DNA of 21,198 bases from JACRDV01 sp024860865 [NCBI: Methanobacteriota archaeon] (lineage in GTDB: Archaea > JACRDV01): NCBI GenBank assembly GCA_024860865.1, contig JACRDV010000096.1, positions 1 to 21,198 on the forward strand. The letters are read 5' to 3'. Positions 857 to 20,743 of this stretch are shown here, piece by piece. Numbering within the stretch: the first letter of the stretch is position 1; each line of letters begins with the position of its first letter. The notes beneath the pieces are model-generated. The model was given only the letters and a program-made list of their open reading frames with translations. It was not told the origin of the DNA and did not search any database. The position numbers and the translations under genes are program-made.

Positions 857-1681
857 TTATGTTTTTGCTTCAATTCTTTTTTCTCTCCAATAGAGAGCAC
901 CCTTTATCAAGCCAATTCCAATCATCGACACTATTCCTAATAGCGGAGAAGGAACAACTGGGTAAATTTTTCCTATATCTGGTATTAACCCAGCTTTAAC
1001 TGGATCAACAGGTAAAACATAAATGACATTTAGTCCACCCCGTTCCTCAAGGCCATAAATGTATGAACCAGGGTTCCTAGCAGCTATATCTTCAGCCATT
1101 TTTACTATTTCATCTCTCTTTTTGAAATGTAATGCATTCCAAGGGCACTGCTGAACACAAGCAGGTTCTAAACCTTTTTCAACTAAGTCATAACAACCAG
1201 AACATTTTCTCGTAACGTTATGTACAGGATCAAATTGAGGCACTTCATATGGACAAGCTACAACACAATATTGACATCCTATGCATATACTGGGATCAAT
1301 ATAGACTAAATCAGTTTTTTCGCTTTTTGTAGCAGCACCAACAGGGCAAACCTCTACGCATTTCGGTTCATGACAATGCATGCATGAATAGCGCATTCGG
1401 ATTTGTTCGCCGTCATGTGCACCTGTGGAAACATATAGCCAAGTTATAGGCGACAAAAAAGTTTCGAAATCATGTGGAAGTTCATTGCGCTCTTTACATC
1501 CAAATTGACAAAGTTCACACCCTGTGCATGCAAACCCATCAAAAAGGATAGCATAACGCTCGCTACTAAATGGTTCGGCAGAAATTTCTTTTAAGCTACT
1601 TGCCATTATAGCTCCAGTTGCAACGCTTGCAATTGATACTTTGATGAACTTGCGCCTAGAAATTTTTATCCTGTTTGGCAT
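857..1681 (-). CDS. HybA-like four-cluster Fe-S subunit, Tat-exported, membrane-tethered
   Basis: This 274-residue protein starts with a twin-arginine motif (SRRKFIK, residues 8-14) and a hydrophobic stretch, so it should be exported folded. Sixteen cysteines fall in four groups (CTGCELCQFGC, CMHCHEPKC..C, CIGCQYC..C, CSGC..C..C), the pattern of DmsB/HybA/NrfC proteins with four [4Fe-4S] clusters. A single C-terminal helix (about 244-263) followed by basic residues resembles the tail anchor of E. coli HybA. It overlaps the end of the protease gene by 16 bp and has a strong GGAGGAGG site, so it is co-translated with the hydrogenase genes. It probably links the hydrogenase small subunit to the downstream NrfD-like protein. 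Confidence 0.92.
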   Translation of the reverse strand: MPNRIKISRRKFIKVSIASVATGAIMASSLKEISAEPFSSERYAILFDGFACTGCELCQFGCKERNELPHDFETFLSPITWLYVSTGAHDGEQIRMRYSCMHCHEPKCVEVCPVGAATKSEKTDLVYIDPSICIGCQYCVVACPYEVPQFDPVHNVTRKCSGCYDLVEKGLEPACVQQCPWNALHFKKRDEIVKMAEDIAARNPGSYIYGLEERGGLNVIYVLPVDPVKAGLIPDIGKIYPVVPSPLLGIVSMIGIGLIKGALYWREKRIEAKT

Positions 1682-2208
1682 CGGGCCTCCTCCTTTGCCA
1701 TCTCAATAAGTTTAGGCAAGTTCTTTTGGACTGGAAGTGAGAGCTCAATACCCGCCTCCAGTTTAAAAGGCTCGACGCCTAACACTACAATTTTTTGCGG
1801 AAGACGGTATATGTCCTTCGCTGAGAGAATTGCATCAGCAAAAGTTAGCTCATGTAAGCTGAGCGATATATCAAAACCAGGTTTAAAATCTTGTATATTG
1901 AATACAAAACGATGAAGAGCGCCGGGTTCTTTGCCTCCTCTATAAGCATCAATAATTATTGCTTTTTTTCGTTCATTTAAACATTCAAGAAGATCAAAGA
2001 CCCTTGTCCCAACCTCAAAGATATCCACTTTGCTATTAATAGAAGAGTCTTTCATTAACTCATAAGCAACTTGAACTCCTGCGCCATCATCAGACATTGT
2101 TAAGTTTCCGATACCTATTATCACAACAGGTTTTCGAGGTTTATTGTAATCAAACAAATTTTTGCTTGCACTTAACCTCTCAATATCTTGTAGTGTAGAA
2201 CTATCCAA
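1666..2208 (-). CDS. hybD: Hydrogenase maturation protease (HyaD/HybD/HupD family, peptidase M52)
   Basis: The 180-residue product has the M52 signature: GIGNLTMSDDGAGV near residues 32-45 (the acidic residues bind nickel in HybD), IIIDAYRGGKEPGALHRF in the middle and SLHELTFADAI further on. This family removes the C-terminal tail of the [NiFe] large subunit after nickel insertion. Its presumed substrate is encoded 19 bp upstream and does carry a 15-residue tail after DPCLACTVH. The first codon is TTG at 2208. A GAGGT site six bases before it, and no in-frame ATG nearby, support that start. The roughly 25 residues before the family core are longer than usual, so a somewhat later start is possible. 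Confidence 0.93.
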   Translation of the reverse strand: MDSSTLQDIERLSASKNLFDYNKPRKPVVIIGIGNLTMSDDGAGVQVAYELMKDSSINSKVDIFEVGTRVFDLLECLNERKKAIIIDAYRGGKEPGALHRFVFNIQDFKPGFDISLSLHELTFADAILSAKDIYRLPQKIVVLGVEPFKLEAGIELSLPVQKNLPKLIEMAKEEARCQTG

Positions 2209-2227: not shown

Positions 2228-3826
2228 TCACCTAATTTGTATCTGGTACCTTTTCTTGTTATCAGCATCGAAAACATGTACTGTACATGCAAGGCATGGA
2301 TCGAAACTTCTAACAGTTCTTCCTATGTTGGTAAGTATCGGGTTCCCTTTAGCATCATTAGGAACTGGCACACCAATTAGTGCTGACTCTATTGGCCCTT
2401 TTTGGTCTAAATGATCTCTTGGAGCAGCATTCCACGAAGTGGCAGCAATGATGTTGTACAAAGAAATTTTTTTGTCCTTGACAGTAACCCAGTGGCCAAG
2501 AGCTCCACGCGGAGCCTCCCAAAGACCAACGCCTTTGTAAGTTCCATCCTTCATTATGTTTGGAGATTTAGGAAGTGCTGTTGGAAGACTTGGATCCAAC
2601 TCTCCTATCCATCGCAATAAAACGCCTTCAACTCCAAAGGACGGTGCACCAATAAACCATAGTGTTTCTTGGACTCTTGCCATAAAACGGCTGAGAGTAT
2701 TTGCAGCAGTATCAGAAGGTTTCCCATTTTCATCGACCCTTAAGTCAAATGGATTTTTGTACATTTTTCTATTAATTACCAACCTTGCCAGTGGACCTAC
2801 TTCAAGTGGGACCCAATTTTCCGCCAAATTATACCGCACGCCTTTAGCCCAGGAATATTTCGGATACTCGGGTGTAGGAATCGGACTGTTCAAGCCAATT
2901 GACTTGACATTTGGATGCGGTGTTGCTTCCTCACCTATATAAACAGCAGTTTTTTCATTCCCCATGTCCGGATTATACCATGAACGCGCTATCGTTTCGC
3001 CAACATTTTTCTGATCAACCAAGTAATCGGAGCCAGCATGATATACTCCACCAGGCACAATTAGTTTGCCTGTCTCTCCAAGTGCATCCAACCATCCATA
3101 GGCAATAAAGTTGTTTAGTCCTTTACCGAAGGTATTCGCACCAACATATTTTATCATAATCTCTTCAAGATTTGCTACAGCAGGCACTAGTGTTGAATCA
3201 ACCCATTGCTGAACGCTTAGAACTCGAGTCATAATTTGCCCGGCTAGTTTGACAGTTATCGCTTGTCCTACCCCTCCTGGTGCCCAAGTATGATCGAAAA
3301 CAGCTCTCCCACCCAATAAAGCAAGACAAGTCATCATGGTGCGCTGATGGAATACCGCTTCTTTGTAGATTTTACCGGTTAAAAAGTTAAATGCCTTCAC
3401 CGTCTCGATGTATTTTGAGGGCCAACCTGACATATCCACGCCATCATTTCTTAATACGTCATAGCTATAGTCTGGTCCCGCTAATGCCACCACATGCAAC
3501 GCATGATCATAAACTATCTCTATCGCTGCCTGAAGGTTCCTCAGCATTATGGCACCTTTAGGGATTTCATTAGTGATTCCAAAGGCATTTTCTATAGCAC
3601 GCGTAGATGCAGTTCGGTGAACGTTATGACAGACACCGCAAACTCTAGCAGTTATTACGGGCGCATCCCTTGGATCTCGACCAAGAAGAATTTGTTCAAC
3701 GCCGCGGTACATCATTGCTGTGGACCAAGCATCTGTGACTTTACCATCTTCAACTTTAACATTAATCGCTAGTGCTCCTTCAATCCTAGTCATCGGATCT
3801 ATCGTGATGATCTGAGGGCTAGCCAT
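2228..3826 (-). CDS. hybC: [NiFe] hydrogenase large subunit (group 1, membrane-bound uptake type)
   Basis: The protein has both nickel-binding motifs: RVCGVCHNVH near the N-terminus and DPCLACTVH near the C-terminus, giving four cysteines for the Ni-Fe(CN)2CO site. A 15-residue tail follows the final His and should be removed by the neighbouring protease. The length of about 532 residues fits group 1 enzymes. The normally conserved RIEGH is RIEGA here: the Glu is kept and the His is replaced. I chose ATG 3826 because GGAG at 3835-3838 lies eight bases upstream. A GTG at 3835 overlaps that site itself and ATG 3832 is too close. It follows the small-subunit gene directly and is exported with it through the Tat signal of the small subunit. 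Confidence 0.96.
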   Translation of the reverse strand: MASPQIITIDPMTRIEGALAINVKVEDGKVTDAWSTAMMYRGVEQILLGRDPRDAPVITARVCGVCHNVHRTASTRAIENAFGITNEIPKGAIMLRNLQAAIEIVYDHALHVVALAGPDYSYDVLRNDGVDMSGWPSKYIETVKAFNFLTGKIYKEAVFHQRTMMTCLALLGGRAVFDHTWAPGGVGQAITVKLAGQIMTRVLSVQQWVDSTLVPAVANLEEIMIKYVGANTFGKGLNNFIAYGWLDALGETGKLIVPGGVYHAGSDYLVDQKNVGETIARSWYNPDMGNEKTAVYIGEEATPHPNVKSIGLNSPIPTPEYPKYSWAKGVRYNLAENWVPLEVGPLARLVINRKMYKNPFDLRVDENGKPSDTAANTLSRFMARVQETLWFIGAPSFGVEGVLLRWIGELDPSLPTALPKSPNIMKDGTYKGVGLWEAPRGALGHWVTVKDKKISLYNIIAATSWNAAPRDHLDQKGPIESALIGVPVPNDAKGNPILTNIGRTVRSFDPCLACTVHVFDADNKKRYQIQIR

Positions 3827-3831
3827 ATCCA

Positions 3832-5100
3832 TCACTCCTTTTTACTCCCAACTTTTTCTTCCTCCTCGACTTTTTTTCGCCGCGTTGCATAAGCATAAAG
3901 CGCATATAAAGCAGTAGCCGCTGCAACGGAGCCCAAAAATATTCCGGAAGATTTTGTTCTAGTTATAAGTGGGGGAGTGGGTAACAGAGGTGGTTTAGGC
4001 AAGATCGCTATTCTCTCAGATAACGGAACATAGAAATCTCTAGTTGGACTATCTGGGTAATTTGGATTTGCGCAACCTTCACAAGGTACGCCTGACTGGT
4101 TAAACCAGCTAACCCCTTCTGCTTGAGAATTCCATTTACGAGTTGGGCAATCATTGAATGTAACTGGACCCTTACAGCCTAGCAAAAGAAAGCAACCAGC
4201 GCCTTTCTCACCAGGCTTAGTTGGGAAAGGATCATTCAGATTGCCGCTGTACTGGTCAAAACTAGTTAAGAATTCTCCTCTATCAAAGAAACCACGGTAT
4301 TGGCATTGATCATGAATTAATCTCCCATAGAAAGCCTTTGGTCTTCCAAGCTCATCGAGTTCTGGTATGTTACCATAAATCAAATCAACCACTGTTAAAA
4401 AGAAGTGGTCAGGATGGACTGGACAACTTGGTAAATTCACAACGGCTGGGACTACTTTCTTGCTCACATCGACACCGAGCTGTTTTAAAGCATCTGCAAT
4501 ACCTAATGCACCAGTTGGATTTGTATTCTCTGGAAGTCCATAAATTGGAGACACTGATCTATATCCATAAATTTGAGCTGAACCCCTTGGTATCCCTCCA
4601 AAAGCTGCAGCCGTGCCAACTGCAACTATAGCATCCGCAGCACCTGCAGCCTGCTTCAGAAGGTCTGTGAATGGACGCCGTTTATTTTCTCTGTAATCCC
4701 AGTAAGTTTCAAAAAGGCCGTTCTCAGCCATTGGAACTGATCCTTCAACAACGAGCACTTTAGGATGAAGTGGTCCTTCTATGAAATTGTCGATCTTCTC
4801 AGCTGCATTTTTGCCCATCTCGACAGTGATGGGGATTAGAAAATCAAGTTGGGTACCCAATTGAACAGCTGCATAGAGGTCAGGATTTGCTCCCTGCAGT
4901 AATGAAACTGCACATCCCTCGCAAGCTTGCCCGTCTAAAATTATAACTTGATTCCTAGCGAAAGCCTGTTTTAAAGCCCTAGCTATTTCAACTGAGTAAT
5001 TTGATAGAACTGTTGATGCACCAACAAGTGCAGCTAATTTTAAGAATTCTCGCCTAGTAACTCTCCATTCAGGTTTTAAAAGTGTTGGAAAGTTTACCAT
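3832..5100 (-). CDS. hybO: [NiFe] hydrogenase small subunit, Tat signal and C-terminal anchor, variant proximal cluster
   Basis: The 422-residue protein opens with a Tat signal (TRREFLK, residues 15-21, then a hydrophobic run) and ends with a membrane helix (about 386-405) and a charged tail. The electron-relay cysteines are CEGC (60, 63) and PSCP (226) for the proximal cluster; His263, Cys266, Cys303 and Cys309 for the distal cluster; and Cys318, Cys340 and Cys343 for the medial cluster. The fourth proximal ligand, normally in GTCAxxGG, is missing: the sequence reads GTAAAFGG with Ala at 164. Only nine cysteines occur in the protein, one fewer than the usual ten. A GGAGG site lies at 5110-5114, nine bases before ATG. 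It is the first gene of the operon; its stop overlaps the GGAG/start region of the large-subunit gene. Confidence 0.96.
   Translation of the reverse strand: MVNFPTLLKPEWRVTRREFLKLAALVGASTVLSNYSVEIARALKQAFARNQVIILDGQACEGCAVSLLQGANPDLYAAVQLGTQLDFLIPITVEMGKNAAEKIDNFIEGPLHPKVLVVEGSVPMAENGLFETYWDYRENKRRPFTDLLKQAAGAADAIVAVGTAAAFGGIPRGSAQIYGYRSVSPIYGLPENTNPTGALGIADALKQLGVDVSKKVVPAVVNLPSCPVHPDHFFLTVVDLIYGNIPELDELGRPKAFYGRLIHDQCQYRGFFDRGEFLTSFDQYSGNLNDPFPTKPGEKGAGCFLLLGCKGPVTFNDCPTRKWNSQAEGVSWFNQSGVPCEGCANPNYPDSPTRDFYVPLSERIAILPKPPLLPTPPLITRTKSSGIFLGSVAAATALYALYAYATRRKKVEEEEKVGSKKE
3835..3838 (-). promoter_or_regulatory. Ribosome binding site that decides the large-subunit start
   Basis: GGAG on the minus strand, next to the small-subunit stop, is eight bases from ATG 3826 but overlaps the GTG at 3833-3835. 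It therefore favours ATG 3826. Confidence 0.6.
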
Positions 5101-5446: not shown

Positions 5447-5824
5447 ATGCATGAGTATTCGATAACTTCACAAATAGTGGAAAATGTTCTTCAGGAAGCA
5501 AAAAAACATGATGCTAAGAAAATTTTTGAAGTACACTTAGTTATAGGCAAATTTACATTTCTTGGCATAGAGCAAGTTAGATTTTCGTATGAAATCTTAG
5601 TAAAAGGTACGATAATGGAGGGCTCAAAGCTCTACATCGAAGAAAGAAATGGCGTAGTGAAATGTGCTGGTTGTGGTTATGAAGGTACAATCATGTACGA
5701 GGATGACCCAAAATATCACATTTTGTTTCCAACGCTTTATTGCCCTAAATGCAGGAGCAAAGTTGACTTGATTGAAGGGAAAGAATGCATAATAAAAAGT
5801 GTCAAGTTAATGCGTGATAAATAA
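5447..5824 (+). CDS. hypA: Hydrogenase nickel-insertion protein HypA
   Basis: The 125-residue protein begins MHE, the conserved nickel-binding N-terminus of HypA. It has a zinc site made of CAGC (73, 76) and CPKC (99, 102). Length and order match the family. HypA works with HypB to deliver nickel to the large subunit, but hypB is not in this window. The stop lies two bases before hypD, so the two form an operon. Only a weak purine-rich sequence precedes the ATG. The gene is divergent from the hydrogenase operon. Confidence 0.96.
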   Translation: MHEYSITSQIVENVLQEAKKHDAKKIFEVHLVIGKFTFLGIEQVRFSYEILVKGTIMEGSKLYIEERNGVVKCAGCGYEGTIMYEDDPKYHILFPTLYCPKCRSKVDLIEGKECIIKSVKLMRDK

Positions 5825-5826
5825 TT

Positions 5827-6915
5827 ATGTTTAGATACAGAAACAAAGAAGTTGCTCAAAAAATTGTTAAACGATTAAAAGAAATGAACCTCAATATTCG
5901 AATTATGCACGTATGTGGTACACATCAAGACACTCTTGTTCGCTACGGGTTAGATACCTTGTTTAGAGAATGCGGCGTTGAAATGAGACAAGGACCTGGT
6001 TGCCCCATCTGCGTCACTACGCCCAAAGAGTACGAAGAAGCAATTACCTTGGCTAGAGAAGGGAAAGTCGTTGCTACTTTTGGAGATGCTATTCGGGTTC
6101 CGGGAATAACGAAATCTTTAGCAGATATGCGCACAGAAGGCAATGATATAAGGGTTGTTTACAGCATTGAAGATGCGGTGAATAGCGCGAAAGAAACTCA
6201 AAATGACGTAATTTTTCTGGCAATTGGATTTGAAACAACTGCACCCAGCACAGCTGCTACACTATTAAGTGATTTGCCGAATAATTTCTCTATCCTTACT
6301 TGCCATCGTTACGTTCCGCCTGCACTAAAGGCATTAATGGAGATGGGTGAACTTAAGTTGCATGGACTTATCGATCCAGGCCATGTGAGCACAGTCATCG
6401 GCATGAAGCCATATGAAGAAATTTCTAAAAAATATCACGTTCCACAAGTTATAGCTGGATTTGAACCTTTAGATATGTTAATGGGAGTATACATGCTTGC
6501 TCGTCAAATTAAAAATGGTGAAGCTAAAGTAGAAAATGAATACACACGATCTGTTCGATATGAAGGCAATGCCAAAGCGATTCAAGTTATGAATGAGGTC
6601 TTTGAACCATTTGATTTAGTTTGGCGTGGATTTTCGATAATTCCAAATTCTGGCATGAAATTAAAACGAAGATTTGAAGAATATAATGCGAAAAAAATTT
6701 ATGAAGATGAACTTAAGAGCGTTGAAGAAATTAAATTTGAAAAGCCAAAGGGATGCAGATGCGATGAGATTTTAAGGGGATTAGTTGAATCGAAGGATTG
6801 CCCGCTATTTGGTCGAGCATGTACTCCACAGCATCCTGTTGGACCCTGCATGGTTTCTGTAGAAGGCTCTTGCAATATCGAGTATAAGTATGGAACAAAA
6901 AAAATCCAAACTTAA
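5827..6915 (+). CDS. hypD: Hydrogenase maturation factor HypD
   Basis: This 362-residue protein has the HypD signatures in order: MHVCGTH (Cys30), GPGCPIC (Cys59, Cys62), GDAIRVPG, GFETTAPS and AGFEPLD. A C-terminal set of four cysteines (from CRCDEILRG to GSC) holds the [4Fe-4S] cluster. HypD with HypC is the scaffold on which the Fe(CN)2CO group is built from the thiocyanate supplied by HypE. The usual CGTHE is CGTHQ here, a conservative change near the active cysteine. HypC, its normal partner, is not in the window. The gene is co-transcribed with hypA and ends four bases from the end of the convergent hypE. Confidence 0.97.
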   Translation: MFRYRNKEVAQKIVKRLKEMNLNIRIMHVCGTHQDTLVRYGLDTLFRECGVEMRQGPGCPICVTTPKEYEEAITLAREGKVVATFGDAIRVPGITKSLADMRTEGNDIRVVYSIEDAVNSAKETQNDVIFLAIGFETTAPSTAATLLSDLPNNFSILTCHRYVPPALKALMEMGELKLHGLIDPGHVSTVIGMKPYEEISKKYHVPQVIAGFEPLDMLMGVYMLARQIKNGEAKVENEYTRSVRYEGNAKAIQVMNEVFEPFDLVWRGFSIIPNSGMKLKRRFEEYNAKKIYEDELKSVEEIKFEKPKGCRCDEILRGLVESKDCPLFGRACTPQHPVGPCMVSVEGSCNIEYKYGTKKIQT

Positions 6916-6919
6916 GCAT

Positions 6920-7984
6920 TTAGCAAATTCTTGGAACCGGATCTCCCGCTGGAGGTGCAAGAATCCTCTTGCCTCCAACACTTGTCTCAAGTACAACTTC
7001 TTTAAATTTTTTAGTCGCTTCTCCTATTATTTGAGCATCTTTGCCTTCTTTAGTCTCTTTTAAGACAGCTAATACTTCTTCAGCCTTTGGGGGTACAACT
7101 GCTATCACAACTTTTCCCTCATTTCCGATTTCTAGCGGGTCTATGCCCAACATTTCACAAGCAGCTCTAACGCCTCCGTGGATTGGAATGTTATCTTCCT
7201 GCACCAATATCCCAATATTTGACTTTTCGCTCCATTCATTAAGCGTATTTGCTAAGCCACCTCTAGTTGGATCTTTCATTGCTACAACACCACCTACATC
7301 CAAAAGTTGTGCAATCAATTTGTTCAATGGGGCCACATCAGAAGTAATTTCACTTTCAAAACCGTAACCTTCACGGAATGATAATATAGCTATTCCATGA
7401 TCTCCCACTGCTCCAGAAACGATTATTTTATCTCCTTCTTTCAAATTTGAATCGAGAAGCCAACGTGAATTAAATTCTCGGTACTTCTTCACTTCTGTAA
7501 TATTTTTTTCTAATGCATTATTTCGCTTGCCAATTCCAGAAGTGTTTATAAAAAATTTTTCTAAAGCTCCTTTTTCAACTACTTTCGTGTCACCAGTAAT
7601 GATGTGTATACCAGCTTCTCTACAAGTTTCACTCATACTTTTTAAAATTTTTTCAAAATCGGTCACTGGAAAACCTTCTTCAAAAATAAACCCTGCAGAA
7701 AGTGCTATTGGCTCAGCACCCATCACAGCTATATCGTTAATCGTGCCCGCAACAGCTAATCTTCCGATATCTCCGCCTGGAAAAAATAGAGGTTTCACTG
7801 TATGGGAATCAGATTTTAAAACTATGTCATCAATTACAGCCGCATCATCAAGCGCTTCAAGCGGAACTTCAGCATCACTTCCGCCTAAATACTTTAGTAT
7901 GTATCTCTTGATCAGCTCTTGCATGATTGTTCCGCCAGCACCATGCGCAAGAGTAATGCGCTTCAATGTTTCATCGTTTTTCAT
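6920..7984 (-). CDS. hypE: Hydrogenase maturation factor HypE (thiocarbamoyl dehydratase)
   Basis: The 354-residue protein belongs to the AIR synthase-like family. It has LAHGAGGTIMQELI at the N-terminus, DDAAVI, and GDTKVV in the central domain. It ends in PRIC, the invariant tail whose last Cys carries the carbamoyl group from HypF and is dehydrated to thiocyanate for the iron cyanide ligands. The ATP-dependent role is established for the family. The gene is on the strand opposite hypA-hypD and converges on hypD with a 4-bp gap. A TTTAATAA block about 30 bp before ATG 7984 suggests its own promoter and a leaderless or nearly leaderless message. hypF is not present here. Confidence 0.97.
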   Translation of the reverse strand: MKNDETLKRITLAHGAGGTIMQELIKRYILKYLGGSDAEVPLEALDDAAVIDDIVLKSDSHTVKPLFFPGGDIGRLAVAGTINDIAVMGAEPIALSAGFIFEEGFPVTDFEKILKSMSETCREAGIHIITGDTKVVEKGALEKFFINTSGIGKRNNALEKNITEVKKYREFNSRWLLDSNLKEGDKIIVSGAVGDHGIAILSFREGYGFESEITSDVAPLNKLIAQLLDVGGVVAMKDPTRGGLANTLNEWSEKSNIGILVQEDNIPIHGGVRAACEMLGIDPLEIGNEGKVVIAVVPPKAEEVLAVLKETKEGKDAQIIGEATKKFKEVVLETSVGGKRILAPPAGDPVPRIC

Positions 7985-9926: not shown

Positions 9927-12896
9927 TTATTTTATCCCTTCTTTCTGCATTATCCCTTCAGCAGCTAAAATCCCAGTTGCTGCAGCACCAACAATACCTC
10001 TAGAGAGCCCTGCCCCATCTCCAGCCACAAAAAGATTTTCAACAGATGTTTCTAGATTTTTTCCAACTTCAACTCTCATTGCATAGAATTTTATTTCAGG
10101 AGCATAAAGTAAAACAGAGTCAGAAGCAACTCCAGGTATGACTTTATCTAACTTCTCAAGCCCTTCTATAATATTTGTAACCACTCGGTGTGGTAAAGCC
10201 ATTGCAATATCCCCAGGCGTAACTGTTTTAAGAGTTGGCTCAATCCCAGATCTTGCTATCCTGTCCCAGTAGGATCTTCTTCCCTTTCTTAAATCACCTA
10301 ATCTTTGCAAAATTGGCTTTCCTCCTCCAATTGTTGTTGCAAGCTCAGCAATTGACCTTCCATATGCTGTTGTATCCTCAACTGGCTCAGTTAATTGAAC
10401 TCTTGTTAAAAATGCAAAATTAGTATTAGGCGATTTAATATCTCGCAATGAATGACCATTAACTCCAACAAATCCATCGTACATTTCTCTTACCACATAA
10501 CCTGACCAATTGGTACAATTATGAATTACAACTGGTACATTACCAACTACAAATGTCCGATAAGGCGGAATTGAAAAGTCATAAACTGGACCCTCGTAAT
10601 TAAAGACTTTAATTCCAGTTATTTTTGTATCTAGCAATGGTTCATTCGAAAAAAGATCTTTCATATATCGAGGAGTCTGAACTTGTCTCCAGTACTTTGG
10701 TTTGTGACTTAATAGATTTTTTATTCCTGCACCATCCATGGCTAACATTTCTTTTGCAAAATTAATTTGATGCGCTCTTCCGCCAACATAAATATAATGT
10801 TCAAATCCTCGGCGGAAAATTTTTTGATTTGGAGCTGCACTCAATGTATTCTTTCTATATGTTATAGGATAACCTAGTCGCATGAGTAAATATCCTAATT
10901 GAGCACGAAGCATTTTAGAAGTTGTCATATAATAAACGCCAGTTCTCCCGACATGCCAATCTCCCTTAAAAAGTGCCTTCAATAGGCTAAATATTATGTT
11001 TTTATCAAAGTTGAAAATATATCTTGGTAATTCTTTATTTTTTGCTCCACTTGGAATTCTGAAGACATATTTTAATAATAAACAATGCAAAAGGGATGGA
11101 AAAGTGACTTGGTTATGATAACGACTAGTTAAATAATGCGCAACATCTTTTCCAATAATCTTCATGCTTTGTATGATTTCTTCTCTAATTGTTTTGCTAT
11201 TATTTGTAAAAGCGATGAAATAATTATGGTGATGTAAATTAAAATTGTAATTTCCATCTGAAACAAAATAACCCAAAATTCTTGCTAGGTCGCGCGTAAT
11301 TGGTAAAATAACAGGCAGCTCAATAATACTACCGGTAAGTCCAAGCCTAAATTTTCTATAATAAGAATCCTTAACGCCATATTTTTCTATTAACTTAATT
11401 AACTTTAAAAATCTCAGTCTGTTATGGTCATATTTGCAATAGAGTTGCTCATAGGTCGCTGTTAGATCCTTTCGCTTAATCTCATCAATATAATCTTCAG
11501 TGCCTCTAACAATTATCTTAGTTAAAAATTTTCTCGGAACATATTTCTTAAATTCTTCAATCAAATTTAATTCAGCAATGATTTTAGCCGTATCTGGCAA
11601 ATTGCGAATTCTTGGCAGGAGTTGACCGGTTTTAACTTCAGTAGCTTTTTTTGGTGTATACTTTAAAATAGGGTCTTTCACCCACTTATAGAAAACGAAT
11701 TTACCTTGCATGCTTTTCCAGACGTATCCGTGCTTTAGTAAATGTTTTAATCGTTCTCTAACTAATGCAACATGAAGTCCAATTTTTTTTGCAATTTCTT
11801 CTGAGCGCACTAGCCCGCTTTTCCTTAAAAGTGTAAGTATCGACATTTCTTCTGGTGTTATATTATCACGAATGAGCAATAAGTGATCAGCAGTTACGCA
11901 AATCTCGCCTCCTTTGAATAACTTCAATCTTACCATTTTACCCTTATAAAAGCGCTTAGTTTTGCATTCTGGTTTTAGCATTTTGATTTTTTTATTATCT
12001 AAATCAACAGAAGCTATGCTCGCTCCACTTGGAACATTTTTAATTCGATCAATATGTAATATGCCATTATCTTCGTAAAAGATCGGTTCATTTGGATGGA
12101 GGCAGAAGGTGCGAACGAAATCATCGTAAGTTTCAGTAAAAATATGAAACTTTGGATCGCGATTGATCTTAATAACCGGTTCAATTACTATATTTGGTAC
12201 TTCTACTCTAACCCCAACATCAATTGGCTCATGAGAAAATTTGATTCCTAATGAACTTGCTTTTTGCTCCAACCAATTTGCTCCGATCCTACCTGTAGCC
12301 GCGATGATGTACTTGCACTTAATCTCTTTTCCATTTATACGAACAAATCCTTTTCCAAAATCTTCAACTTTGGTATCAGCAAGTATCTTCACACCATTTT
12401 TTTCTAAAGTGTTTTGGATAGCTTTCAAAACTTTTGGGGTATAGTCCGAACCAACTAGCCTTTGTGGAATTTGGATGAACTTAACTCCAGCAGCAGCTGC
12501 TTTTCTGGATAACTCGAGCGCTGTATTGCTCGGCTCATAAAGCTCATTAGGAGCTCCATGCTTCAAAAAAACATCATCAACTTTCTTAACCAAATCCCAG
12601 GCTTTTTTCTCATTTTTAGTTAGATCTATTAGGTTACCACCGATATCTGGCCTTAAATTTAAAATACAGGATGAAAGCCCGCCAGCCCCTCCAACTCCAG
12701 ACATAATATTGCATGGCTTACAGCGTTTGCATTCGCCAATTGCTACTCCAATTATGCCTGCTGGACAATTGCGTTTATCGACCGGTTTACCTTGCTCTAA
12801 AACCAAGACATTCAGTTTGCTTTTCTCAGAAAGCTCATAAGCAGCAAATAGACCAGCTGGGCCTGCTCCGATTATCACAACGTCGGCTTTTTCCAT
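9927..12896 (-). CDS. FAD-dependent dehydrogenase (COG2509 type) interrupted by an intein
   Basis: The 989-residue reading frame encodes a flavoprotein of about 460 residues split by an intein. Residues 1-264 hold the dinucleotide-binding motif ([18 protein letters not shown]10-G15), a Cys-rich segment (C44, C56, C59, C62), the GVGGAGG loop and [12 protein letters not shown]. Residues 794-989 end with the second FAD motif [20 protein letters not shown]. This matches the uncharacterised FAD-dependent dehydrogenases of COG2509; the substrate is unknown. After splicing, residue F264 joins C794 to give RTF-CTNW. The gene is divergent from the HTH-CBS gene and shares its promoter region. Removal of the intein is needed for activity because it sits inside the catalytic fold. 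Confidence 0.92.
10518..12104 (-). mobile_element. Intein with LAGLIDADG endonuclease and internal winged-helix segment
   Basis: The intein spans residues 265-793 (529 residues). It begins with Cys265, has the TADH block B motif at 335-338, and ends VVIHN with Cys794 as the next residue, the standard class 1 splicing set. Block F is near 766-786 ([16 protein letters not shown]). Two LAGLIDADG-type motifs ([12 protein letters not shown], 538-549; [13 protein letters not shown], 638-650) indicate a homing endonuclease; both keep an acidic residue. A winged-helix-like stretch (347-407) lies before the strand EVKTGQLLP, inside the splicing half. All motifs look intact, so splicing and endonuclease activity are both plausible. 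Confidence 0.93.
11676..11858 (-). other. Winged helix-turn-helix-like insert within the intein splicing domain
   Basis: Residues 347-407 of the precursor read as a typical MarR/ArsR-like winged helix: a helix starting [16 protein letters not shown], then [20 protein letters not shown], then [20 protein letters not shown]. It follows block B directly and precedes the Hint strand EVKTGQLLP, so it is placed in the splicing domain rather than in the endonuclease. Confidence 0.6.
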
Positions 12897-17493: not shown

Positions 17494-20109
17494 ATGGCTA
17501 AGAAAGTAGCTTTTTATATGGACTATGATAAATACGGCCGAAATGAAGCTCCTGGTATTCTGCTTTTCGTTCAACTGCTTAGAGATAAAGGATATGAAGT
17601 GGATTTTATAACTTCAGAGCAAGAGCTACTCCATAAATTAGAGCATAATAGATATGATGCCGTTGCTGTTTCTGCTTTTAGCAGTTTAGAATTGCGTGAT
17701 ATTTTAAAGACGGCAATTAAGATCAAAAAGCAAGATCCTTGTATTGTCACTATTCTTGGAGGGCATGGAGCATCGACAAATGCCCAAAAATTATCTCATG
17801 CTACAGGCATCGATGTAGTTGTAGAAGGTGAAGCAGAGAATTCTCTCCCCCTTATTTTAAAAAATGTTGAAAGGGCTGAAGTACCTGCTATAGAATCGAT
17901 TAATGATCGAGCTGAACTGGACCTAACACAAGAGCAAATCGAATTTTTAGGTATAGAAGCTGTTAATTTGTTACTAATGGATAGAGTATATTATAGAAGC
18001 CCAATAACCAAGGAACAGGCTGAAAGACTGATAAATTCTTCATTTGAAAGAATAACCACAAAAGATGGCGAACAAATAAAATTAAATGTACCTCTATCAG
18101 GTGTAATTTTTAGCACGCGAGACGGTAATTTTTTCGATATGAGTAAGATAACCAAAAGTACTGACCATAGCTGGACAGATGCACATCAAAGGAATAAACT
18201 GGTGTGGGAAAAAGAACATTCTAAAAAATTTCCACTAATCTTACAAGAGTTTATCCATTACATGCATCTACATCCAACTGACGAAGAATGGAACAAACAA
18301 ACTACAAAATATCCATGGGACATAGTAAAAGAAAAGAACTGGACTAATATCAGTTTATATGTGCAAAAGGGATGCTCCTGGCGCAATTGTGCATTTTGCG
18401 GTGTAACTACAGTGGGAGGTAGAAGGCTCAAGGTTAAGTCAAAAGAGAGTTTAAGCGTTATTCAGATGTTGGAAGAAGCTAGAGACAACGGCATTAAAGC
18501 AGTTACATTTGATGATGATGAATTTGTTCAAGACCAAGAATGGGTAAAAGAACTATGCAATGAGATAATGAAGCGCAAATTAAATGAAAAATTAGTTTTC
18601 AGTGCAATGATAAGAGTGGAGTCAATTAAAAGAACACAATTGTCAAAACATCATATCAAGAAAGCGATAAACAGCATCAAGGGAGAAGAAAATAAAAGAA
18701 TAGTTTCAGAAATGTTAAAATACATAGAAGATGAAGGACTTAACAATTTTTTTAAAGAACTTAATTTTGGTGGTAAGTTTGGTAAAGAACAAGCAATAGC
18801 AGAGCTGATAGGAAAATTAAATGAATTCTTGCCAGAATCTGAGAAAATAGCACTTAACGAATATCTTTCTGATAAATTAATAGAACATTTTCTACTGCAA
18901 TTGCTAAAAGATGCAAACTTTATAAAACTTCAAATTGGAGTAGAAAGTTTCGTTCCAGAGAAAATAAAATATTTTCAAAAAACGAGGGAGGGAAAAGAAG
19001 AAAAATACATTGAAAAAGCAAAAGAACTAATTCGATCTTGTTTAGAAGCAGATATAATCCCTGGAATATTCGTAATTACAACAAGACCTAAGCAGAAGCG
19101 CGCCTTAAGTGAAATTGCTGAAGAACTAAAAATAATTTCTAGTATACTTAAGGAGTCTTATGAAAAGTATAACATAATTCCAATTTTTAGTTTTAATGAT
19201 ATGCTGATGGCATATCCCGGTGCTCCGTTGCTTAAAAAAGAAGGGATAAAAAAATTTTTGGCTCCATTGAGACCGGTTATAGTTGCTAAAGGAGAAAAAG
19301 TAAAAATTGAAATTGAAACTTTAGAAATTCCGTATATTTTTAAACTTAAAAATATGGCGCTAACTAATTTTATTAGCAATCTATTTGCCATCAGTAAAAG
19401 CAGAAAATTACCTCCTGAAGAACTAAACGAAACGATAGAACACATTAAAGATGCAACAAGTGCTCTTGAAATATCTGCAAAGCAATTAGGCACCCTTTCA
19501 AGCATAATTTACGAATTTATAAGAGAACTTGGTTCCGATGGCAGGTTTGCTGGAGAACAAGCTGCTGTTAAGTTGCTGATTGAACTTAACGAATTTTTGC
19601 CTGAGTGGCATAAAATAACTCTGGATGATGGGTCCGCAATCAAACCAGATGCCCATTTAATAGGGCACGATAAATCAATTCCTGATAAATTGAAAAAGTT
19701 GTTGGTACGTAACATTTTGACGCCAGAGAATGTTGTTAATGCAATTAAAAATACCCAAAATAATGGGAACAAAAAGATGTTAGAATTTATCAATGATGAA
19801 GTAACCAAACAACAATTAGCAGAAAAGGATGAAGTTTTAGACAAATGCGGCGAGATAAATAGGAATATCCTAGACTTAGAAAACTCGATTGACGAAAACA
19901 TAAAAAAATATCTTAGCCAATTAAGAGATGAGTTAGAAAAATTGAATGAAATTAGAGATACAAAAATATTTGCTCAGAAAATTAATGAAATGTGCGAAAG
20001 AACTAAGGACTTTATAGAAAAGGTATTTCCTTCACTTAAAGGAAGAACAACATTAAATTCAGTTATAAATTGGCTTTCAACATACTCTATTAAAGAAAAA
20101 ATTTTATGA
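17494..20109 (+). CDS. B12-binding-domain radical SAM protein with inserted repeat module
   Basis: Residues 1-125 form a cobalamin-binding-type Rossmann domain (ILGGHGAST and IDVVVEGEAENSL) without the DxHxxG base-off motif, as in many B12-type radical SAM proteins. Residues 285-600 hold the radical SAM core: GCSWRNCAFCGV gives Cys294, Cys299 and Cys302 (CX4CX2C, one residue longer than CX3CX2C), then AVTFDDDEF, SAMIRVESI and IKLQIGVESF. About 88 residues (379-466) interrupt the core between SAMIRVESI and the next helix. A 40-residue segment in this insert (416-455) reappears near the C-terminus (673-712). The last 150 residues are mostly helical. The substrate is unknown. At 871 residues it is long for the family. 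It stands alone after a terminator-like hairpin. Confidence 0.85.
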   Translation: MAKKVAFYMDYDKYGRNEAPGILLFVQLLRDKGYEVDFITSEQELLHKLEHNRYDAVAVSAFSSLELRDILKTAIKIKKQDPCIVTILGGHGASTNAQKLSHATGIDVVVEGEAENSLPLILKNVERAEVPAIESINDRAELDLTQEQIEFLGIEAVNLLLMDRVYYRSPITKEQAERLINSSFERITTKDGEQIKLNVPLSGVIFSTRDGNFFDMSKITKSTDHSWTDAHQRNKLVWEKEHSKKFPLILQEFIHYMHLHPTDEEWNKQTTKYPWDIVKEKNWTNISLYVQKGCSWRNCAFCGVTTVGGRRLKVKSKESLSVIQMLEEARDNGIKAVTFDDDEFVQDQEWVKELCNEIMKRKLNEKLVFSAMIRVESIKRTQLSKHHIKKAINSIKGEENKRIVSEMLKYIEDEGLNNFFKELNFGGKFGKEQAIAELIGKLNEFLPESEKIALNEYLSDKLIEHFLLQLLKDANFIKLQIGVESFVPEKIKYFQKTREGKEEKYIEKAKELIRSCLEADIIPGIFVITTRPKQKRALSEIAEELKIISSILKESYEKYNIIPIFSFNDMLMAYPGAPLLKKEGIKKFLAPLRPVIVAKGEKVKIEIETLEIPYIFKLKNMALTNFISNLFAISKSRKLPPEELNETIEHIKDATSALEISAKQLGTLSSIIYEFIRELGSDGRFAGEQAAVKLLIELNEFLPEWHKITLDDGSAIKPDAHLIGHDKSIPDKLKKLLVRNILTPENVVNAIKNTQNNGNKKMLEFINDEVTKQQLAEKDEVLDKCGEINRNILDLENSIDENIKKYLSQLRDELEKLNEIRDTKIFAQKINEMCERTKDFIEKVFPSLKGRTTLNSVINWLSTYSIKEKIL
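18739..18858 (+). repeat. Protein repeat copy A inside radical SAM core
   Basis: Residues 416-455 include FFKELNFGGKFGKEQA and LNEFLPESEKIAL. They match copy B at most conserved positions: F, EL, G, F, EQA, LNEFLPE, KI and L. The copy is part of the segment that interrupts the radical SAM domain. Confidence 0.6.
19510..19629 (+). repeat. Protein repeat copy B in C-terminal region
   Basis: Residues 673-712 include FIRELGSDGRFAGEQA and LNEFLPEWHKITL, the second copy of the module. A helix like the one before copy A (AINSIKGEENKRIV) seems to follow copy B instead (AIKNTQNNGNKKML), so the order of parts may differ. Confidence 0.6.
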
Positions 20110-20126: not shown

Positions 20127-20147
20127 AAGTTAATGAAGGCTTAACTT
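20127..20147. terminator. Inverted repeat between convergent genes
   Basis: AAGTTAA and TTAACTT are perfect complements around seven bases. The hairpin lies between the ends of the radical SAM and ferredoxin genes and could end transcription from both sides. Confidence 0.4.
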
Positions 20148-20743
20148 TAAAATTTATGACCACCCTTGCAGTAAAATGCTGCCGGCTGAAACCATTCTAG
20201 TTCAGGGATGACTAAAACTTTTATTTTTTCTTTTTCTATATAGGTAGAGAGTTCATCAAGTGTACCAAACTTTCTTGCTTTATATGGACACTTTGACACA
20301 CAAACTGGCACTTGACCTCTATCCACTAGATGCGCACACATATTACACTTATCAGCAATGCCAATTTTGTCGTTGAACTGTATAGCTCCATATGGGCAGA
20401 CCAAAATACATTGCTTGCAACCGATGCACTTGTCTGCTACTATGTGAACTATCCCATCTGCACGCCTTTCTATCGCTCCCTTAGGACAGGATTCGATACA
20501 TGGCGCTCTGCCACAGTGGTAACAGTTCTGGGGTACAAACAGTTTTTGGGGTACCCCCCATCTTTTGTCTATTTCCTTGTTTTCGGGTTCAAATGTAACT
20601 ACACTGGAGGATGGATCAAGCACTGTCACGCGTATTCGCCATATGGTCTTTGGAAGATTGTTTTCTCTTCTGCACCAGACCTCGCAGGCATGGCATCCAG
20701 TACAGGTATTTATATCAGTAAGAAAGCCGTACTCTTTTGAGAT
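20147..20743 (-). CDS. Four-cluster ferredoxin subunit (DmsB/PhsB-like), start codon uncertain
   Basis: Sixteen cysteines form four [4Fe-4S] groups: CTGCHACEVWC, CYHCGRAPC..C, CIGCKQC..C and CNMC..C..C. The first group lies upstream of the only standard start codon in frame (GTG 20629), which would delete a whole cluster. The open frame continues to a TAA at 20774-20776, but contains no ATG, GTG or TTG in that part. I give ATC 20743 as a marker only. Either a rare start is used, or the start was lost; adding one G to the G5 run (20751-20755) would create a TTG start. Proteins of this type carry electrons for molybdopterin or aldehyde oxidoreductases, but no partner is adjacent. No Tat motif is visible, so it is likely cytoplasmic. 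Confidence 0.75.
   Translation of the reverse strand: MSKEYGFLTDINTCTGCHACEVWCRRENNLPKTIWRIRVTVLDPSSSVVTFEPENKEIDKRWGVPQKLFVPQNCYHCGRAPCIESCPKGAIERRADGIVHIVADKCIGCKQCILVCPYGAIQFNDKIGIADKCNMCAHLVDRGQVPVCVSKCPYKARKFGTLDELSTYIEKEKIKVLVIPELEWFQPAAFYCKGGHKF

Follow-up and report, generated by a model that had tools for sequence, protein, structure and literature searches.

Three archaeal genomes encode a [NiFe] hydrogenase in which two near-universal residues have been lost and, by alignment, both sit at one cluster: the third cysteine ligand of the proximal iron-sulfur cluster in the small subunit (Cys115 of E. coli hydrogenase 1, Hyd-1), and the histidine of the large subunit that faces the same cluster (His229 of HyaB, His214 of HybC). 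This joint loss in three genomes suggests that the first electron relay has been rebuilt, probably with three irons. One of the three enzymes is encoded in the window, the whole stretch of 21,198 nucleotides analysed here (contig JACRDV010000096.1); its features are collected in Table 1. A preliminary description of the window had noted the missing cysteine; it missed two things, the lineage-wide extent of the loss and the paired loss of the histidine in the large subunit.

Table 1 Genes and residues of the hydrogenase locus in the window, in order of position; aa, amino acids; Hyd-1, E. coli hydrogenase 1.
Feature	Position	Strand	Basis
NrfD-type membrane subunit (HybB role), cut by contig end	2..829	minus	PF03916, 80.1 bits
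Multi-[4Fe-4S] electron-transfer protein, HybA/HmcB/DmsB-like	857..1681	minus	PF13247 and other Fer4 models over cut-off
Hydrogenase maturation endopeptidase (HycI/HupD type)	1666..2208	minus	PF01750, TIGR00072
[NiFe]-hydrogenase large subunit, 535 aa	2228..3835	minus	PF00374, alignments
V179-F180-D181-H182, with Phe180 at the proximal-facing His site (HyaB His229 / HybC His214)	3290..3301	minus	alignment
Cys170, sole large-subunit Cys outside the Ni motifs	3326..3328	minus	alignment
[NiFe]-hydrogenase small subunit, 422 aa	3832..5100	minus	TIGR00391, PF14720, PF01058, hydropathy
Ser225-Cys226, with Cys226 the kept proximal ligand 4 (Cys149)	4423..4428	minus	alignment
Insert a few residues past the lost Cys, approximately residues 172-193	4522..4587	minus	alignment
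Ala164 (codon GCT), site of the third proximal ligand (Cys115 of Hyd-1)	4609..4611	minus	alignment
Glu119 (Glu76 of Hyd-1), candidate replacement ligand	4744..4746	minus	alignment; PMC5811149 for Hyd-1
Cys60-Glu-Gly-Cys63, kept proximal ligands 1 and 2 (Cys17, Cys20)	4912..4923	minus	alignment
hypA	5447..5824	plus	TIGR00100 over cut-off
hypD	5827..6915	plus	TIGR00075 over cut-off
hypE	6920..7984	minus	TIGR02124 over cut-off

Sequences compared

The panel holds 55 small-subunit and 53 large-subunit open reading frames: archaeal matches, E. coli Hyd-1 and Hyd-2, three enzymes of C. necator, and other plasmid-borne enzymes. Bacterial rows, from plasmids and from E. coli K-12, make up 17 of the 55 and 17 of the 53, respectively. 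It covers 30 archaeal matches with loci and leaves out others, including second copies in genomes G207, G189 and G094 and many members of family f17; duplicate loci (L001, L014-L018, L020, L027, L036, L048) do not enter the counts. Close kin are frequent among the rows (six belong to family f2, for example), five rows are group-3-like outgroups, and several large-subunit rows are shortened by the locus end. An in-frame TAG in L004 and in L065 lies before the start or at the protein end. The labels MBH, AH/HofK, group 1h and group 3 given to reference rows are our assumption, and the RH row is labelled by its own annotation; L058 matches HucS at 560 bits. Ligands were numbered by alignment to E. 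coli HyaA, in mature numbering, and the positions of HyaB His229 and HybC His214 were verified on the E. coli K-12 genes.

Small subunit

The small subunit was assigned by TIGR00391 (188.6 bits against a cut-off of 179.5, a slim margin), by a match to PF14720, and by the relay ligands in the alignment. Its N-terminus is of the Tat type (TRREFLKLAA, by eye), and a C-terminal hydrophobic segment is placed at residues 387-405 (best 19-residue hydropathy 1.56; an internal segment is nearly equal at 1.52).

The protein has nine cysteines (60, 63, 226, 266, 303, 309, 318, 340, 343), all of which align with ligands. At the proximal cluster Cys60 corresponds to Cys17, Cys63 to Cys20, and Cys226 to Cys149; at the medial cluster Cys318 to Cys230, Cys340 to Cys249, and Cys343 to Cys252; at the distal cluster Cys266 to Cys190, Cys303 to Cys215, and Cys309 to Cys221, together with His263 (His187). 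Ala164, in the translated motif VGT-A164-AAFGG, stands at Cys115, Gly169 at Cys120, and Glu119 at Glu76. Over the standard [4Fe-4S] set (Cys 17, 20, 115 and 149 in Hyd-1 numbering) the window reads Cys, Cys, Ala and Cys. The preliminary description had given alanine at residue 164 in GTAAAFGG, every other relay ligand in place and no cysteine among the nine to spare; translation and alignment bear this out, and a compensating cysteine in the small subunit is ruled out.

Two further changes adjoin the kept and lost ligands. Ser225 precedes Cys226, at a column that holds Gly in 46 of the 52 other rows; this position (Gly148 of Hyd-1, before Cys149) is Ser or Thr in the clade of three. Past the lost cysteine all three members carry an insert of 17-18 residues. 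The segment from (F/Y)GGI to NPTGA(L/V)G is 33-34 residues long in the clade; the 47 other rows of group-1/2 type have 15-27 (31 of them exactly 16), and the five group-3-like outgroups have 30-32. Tyr178, Ser184, Tyr187 and Glu191 of the insert are invariant across the three members.

Rarity of the loss

The third proximal position is Cys in 52 of the 55 small subunits, the exceptions being the window and its two closest relatives. With the four proximal positions given in order, the sets are CCCC in 30 rows, DCCC in 12, CDCC in 6, CNCC in 4, CCAC in 2 and CCTC in 1; replacement by Asp at position 1, or by Asp or Asn at position 2, is seen repeatedly in the panel (Asp at one or the other in 18 of 55 rows), and a non-Cys residue at position 3 occurs only in the clade of three. 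Alignment with group 1 small subunits and archaeal homologues, as the preliminary description had proposed, places no other Cys at the ligand position. Its statement that the ligand set differs from the 3Cys-1Asp type also holds: Asp stands at position 2 in four C-D-C-C rows (L049, L056, L059, L060), which we take to be group 1h, and at position 1 in 12 archaeal rows.

The twelve archaeal small subunits with D-C-C-C are L004, L032-L034, L037, L040, L019, L026, L028, L029, L031 and L041; they fall in at least two separate places in the small-subunit tree, one next to the Huc-like rows and the other a group-1 clade. L054, from a Sulfurimonas plasmid (small-subunit frame from 2248), has C-N-C-C and groups with E. 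coli Hyd-2 (93/84); its Asn at position 2, like that of Huc, is apparently of separate origin.

For the proximal cluster, the natural substitutions given in Table 1 of PMC4070099 concern positions 1 and 2 alone, and the clade adds a third position (115) to them. No printed case of a loss of the third proximal Cys was recognised in the open-licence literature, by title or abstract opening. Undescribed archaeal group 1 clades are mentioned in PMC11018855, and these may include the clade of three.

Relatives and inheritance

Relatives were sought with exact short peptides of the window protein in one genome per species (84,980 species), a scan that more distant members could escape. Two were found in separate assemblies: L012 (JAADFM010000050.1, 66% identity) and L013 (JALTZZ010000014.1, 63%). 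At residue 164 the motif reads GT-T-AAYGG in L012 and GT-A-AAYGG in L013, with the codons ACG and GCA against GCT in the window, and in neither protein does any Cys fall at the vacant position. Each has one Cys near residue 325 (WNC) that is absent from the window; it adjoins the medial ligand Cys318 in sequence and was not taken as a replacement ligand. By alignment, the loss of Cys115 is a lineage trait, with Ala, Thr and Ala in the three genomes.

A profile of the three rows, run against 394 archaeal genomes, matched in 72; the three members scored about 850 bits and the next match 206, the profile having been built from those three. By contig coordinates L012 lies in genome G394 and L013 in G219; these two belong to two families of one phylum (23 genomes), and the window's genome is the sole one of its own phylum in the set. 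Further searches, by phylum and with the relatives, gave no fourth member, the extra matches falling in genomes already matched, and one scan of viral contigs gave no relative.

All three members retain the counterparts of Cys17, Cys20 and Cys149, the ligands of the medial and distal clusters, and the catalytic motifs, and the frames are full-length and open. Locus GC is 0.363 in the window, 0.596 in L012 and 0.373 in L013. Among the three loci dN is 0.27-0.31 and dS is saturated (NG86), which fits purifying selection.

Large subunit

The nickel-binding motifs are intact and conserved in all three members (L1, RVCGVC, residues 64-69; L4, DPCLAC, residues 512-517). The GGKxPH motif reads GGR(A/G)VF in each, with the proximal-facing residue Phe in 3/3 members; all 50 remaining rows of the 53 have His. 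Val179 replaces the Pro that precedes this site in 41 of the 50 other rows; His182, two residues past it, is found in 3/3 members and in at most 2 of the 50 others. In most structures the N-epsilon of the histidine is hydrogen-bonded to the Cys17 sulfur of the proximal cluster and the N-delta to Thr79, according to PMC5811149. Its exchange for Ala in E. coli Hyd-2, a standard [4Fe-4S] enzyme, was without major effect on catalysis (PMC5900901).

Among columns that are well filled and invariant in all other rows, the clade is changed at 1 of 13 in the small subunit (Cys115) and at 1 of 8 in the large subunit (His229).

Cys170 occurs in 3/3 members and otherwise only in L019 and L041 among the 53 rows. 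Over the 49 loci with one gene per subunit, 5/5 carriers of Cys170 are non-canonical at the proximal set, and 0/27 canonical loci carry it. The HyaB Glu73 position is Ala in the window and Ser in both relatives; Ser is also found there in 6 other rows. His70 stands at the position of the Hyd-1 Thr that holds His229, a variable column (Thr in 9 of 53 rows, His in 9) from which no significance is drawn.

Trees and placement

The clade of three is supported by a 100/100 branch in the small-subunit tree and in the large-subunit tree; the nearest relatives, which would point to a HydDB group 1 subgroup, differ between the two. In the large-subunit tree the clade is sister to eight archaeal rows (100/99), six of which have Asp in the proximal set; in the small-subunit tree it is placed elsewhere with weak support. 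The small-subunit data reject the large-subunit placement at an AU p of 0.0142, with twelve rows held together and the group named after the other tree had been seen. Either the rebuilt small subunit misleads its tree, possibly by a long-branch effect, or the subunits have different histories, possibly by a swap.

State of the proximal cluster

The losses of Cys115 and His229, the change at Gly148 and the insert after the lost cysteine together point to one site rebuilt across two subunits. The preliminary description had offered two options, a new set of ligands or a cluster held by 3 Cys, and these remain the right pair. The reading that we prefer, at about even chances, is that of a membrane-bound uptake [NiFe] hydrogenase whose proximal site was rebuilt in the ancestor of the clade and which now holds a three-Cys cluster, most likely [3Fe-4S]. 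The ligand Cys115 and the second-shell His229 were lost on one stem of the archaeal tree, with the rest conserved; the cluster would be held by Cys60, Cys63 and Cys226, without the iron that Cys115 would hold. Such a first relay would be of higher potential and would favour H2 oxidation. Beyond the medial and distal clusters, electrons would reach the HybA-like protein and the NrfD membrane subunit; from there they would probably enter a quinone-type pool and, in these DsrA-bearing genomes, would perhaps go onward to sulfite or sulfate reduction.

A precedent for a three-Cys [3Fe-4S] cluster is Huc, an H2-oxidising enzyme. Its small subunit has Asn at position 2, and its proximal cluster is reported to be [3Fe-4S] (PMC10017518). 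That assignment, made for all three Huc clusters, was based on density, the fourth coordinating residue and EPR, and clusters of this kind have a potential about 250 mV higher (PMC10017518). An Alteromonas enzyme also speaks for the reading: the third proximal Cys (C158 by mapping on L052) is not named among the ligands that tolerated at most Asp (PMC4070099). The same source numbers the first two ligands 78 and 81 against 61 and 64 in L052, and the others compared agree. Against the reading it counts that the position missing in Huc is 2 and that in the clade 3, that the residues tried in the Alteromonas enzyme (Asp, His, Asn and Gln) did not include Ala, and that the sequence also allows a [4Fe-4S] cluster whose fourth ligand is not Cys.

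Alternatives in which a [4Fe-4S] cluster is kept with a non-Cys or large-subunit fourth ligand (Glu119, the insert, His182, Cys170) are, taken jointly, a real prospect that we would put somewhat short of even. The first of them, a site-differentiated [4Fe-4S] cluster with its fourth iron on water or hydroxide, or on Glu119, Glu191, Ser184, Tyr178 or Tyr187, is by itself doubtful. The insert that would supply four of these residues begins a few residues past the lost Cys and is matched in length by no other group-1/2-type row, and the frequency of Asp at positions 1 and 2 in the panel shows that O-type residues are common at the cluster. Glu76 of Hyd-1, the counterpart of Glu119, can bind a proximal-cluster iron, but that iron is the one held by Cys20 and not that of Cys115 (PMC5811149). 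Glu119 is, moreover, no new gain, since most relatives with Cys115 have it too. AlphaFold models from three-row alignments (mean pLDDT 38.4 for the small subunit, 35.2 for the large) are too low in confidence to place a residue at the open iron.

The second, which we regard as improbable, is ligation across the subunit interface, with His182 or Cys170 of the large subunit giving the fourth ligand of a site-differentiated [4Fe-4S] cluster and so replacing Cys115 and His229; if true, it would give the Ni-Fe site a direct coupling to the first relay. The restriction of His182 almost wholly to the clade, and the association of Cys170 with non-canonical proximal sets, speak for it. The five Cys170 loci, however, lie in one large-subunit clade, so that the association is not independent, and L019 and L041 have Asp at position 1 and keep both Cys115 and His229, so that Cys170 is probably older than the loss of Cys115. 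This weakens Cys170 as a ligand gained with the loss.

Loss of the proximal cluster, or decay of the enzyme, is a good deal less probable still: two near-universal contacts of the cluster are missing together, but the remaining relay ligands and catalytic motifs are kept in all three members, the frames are open, the operon is preserved, hypA, hypD and hypE are present in the window, and dS is saturated at a dN of about 0.3. An error of sequencing or assembly can be dismissed, although the window's genome is a 160-contig draft: a change from Cys to GCT takes at least two base changes, as had been pointed out when a read error was first called unlikely, both independent relatives have other non-Cys codons, and the partner subunit is altered at the same site.

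Comparison with known hydrogenases

The proximal cluster and the histidine that faces it are central in work on catalytic bias and O2 tolerance (PMC5900901, PMC5811149). Having dropped both residues and kept the rest of the enzyme, the clade offers a natural way to ask whether H2 oxidation requires one or the other. The O2-tolerant [4Fe-3S] type was considered and rejected, Cys19 and Cys120 being Gly62 and Gly169 here; other features of O2 tolerance are likewise missing in the window (Phe at His229, and Ala at the Glu73 position, which is Ala or Ser in the clade).

As in Huc (group 2a, 7uur/7utd), one proximal Cys position is replaced; HucS, however, has Asn at position 2, where the clade has Cys63, the loss in the clade being at position 3, and Huc keeps the His facing the proximal cluster, where the clade has Phe. 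With the group 1h or actinobacterial-type enzyme (C. necator HofK, which we take to be L049; 5aa5) the clade shares three Cys and one non-Cys residue at the proximal cluster, but in that type Asp is at position 2 and the His is kept, whereas the clade has Ala or Thr at position 3 and Phe. The archaeal group-1 enzymes with a proximal Asp (L019, L041, L026) are sisters in the large-subunit tree, and L019 and L041 share Cys170; unlike the clade they keep Cys115 and His229 and have no insert this long, and the small-subunit tree denies the sisterhood. E. coli hydrogenase 2 (HybO/HybC/HybA/HybB) has the same cluster of small-subunit, large-subunit, HybA-like FeS and NrfD/HybB-like genes; it differs in gene order, in the four proximal Cys of HybO and in His214 of HybC. 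Its proximal cluster is a standard [4Fe-4S] (PMC5900901).

Gene neighbourhood and genome context

The gene order common to the three loci is small subunit, large subunit, protease (absent in L012), FeS protein and NrfD. For the FeS protein the NCBIfam matches shown (HmcB, HybA, DmsB) are all under cut-off; the NrfD frames are full-length in L012 and L013. No other [NiFe] hydrogenase was found in the window's genome, which is 92.45% complete. In that genome and in G219 the two large-subunit matches fall within a single frame, which gives one [NiFe] large-subunit gene per genome; G394 has one, with an additional short match under cut-off. DsrA is over cut-off in the genomes of all three members; a link to the hydrogenase clade is not specific, since 13 of the 23 genomes in the phylum to which G219 and G394 belong also pass the cut-off.

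Three other genes of the window were recorded. At 9927-12896 (minus) lies an FAD-dependent oxidoreductase-type protein of 989 aa, split by an intein that Pfam matches over residues 289-793, with a weak LAGLIDADG match and, inside that stretch, a Pfam MarR-type helix-turn-helix (346-392); at 17494-20109 (plus) a protein of 871 aa that has a long C-terminal region, a domain of the B12-binding type and a match to radical SAM under cut-off; and at 20147-20629 (minus), near the other contig end and with no hydrogenase gene adjoining in the window, a second ferredoxin-type multi-[4Fe-4S] protein.
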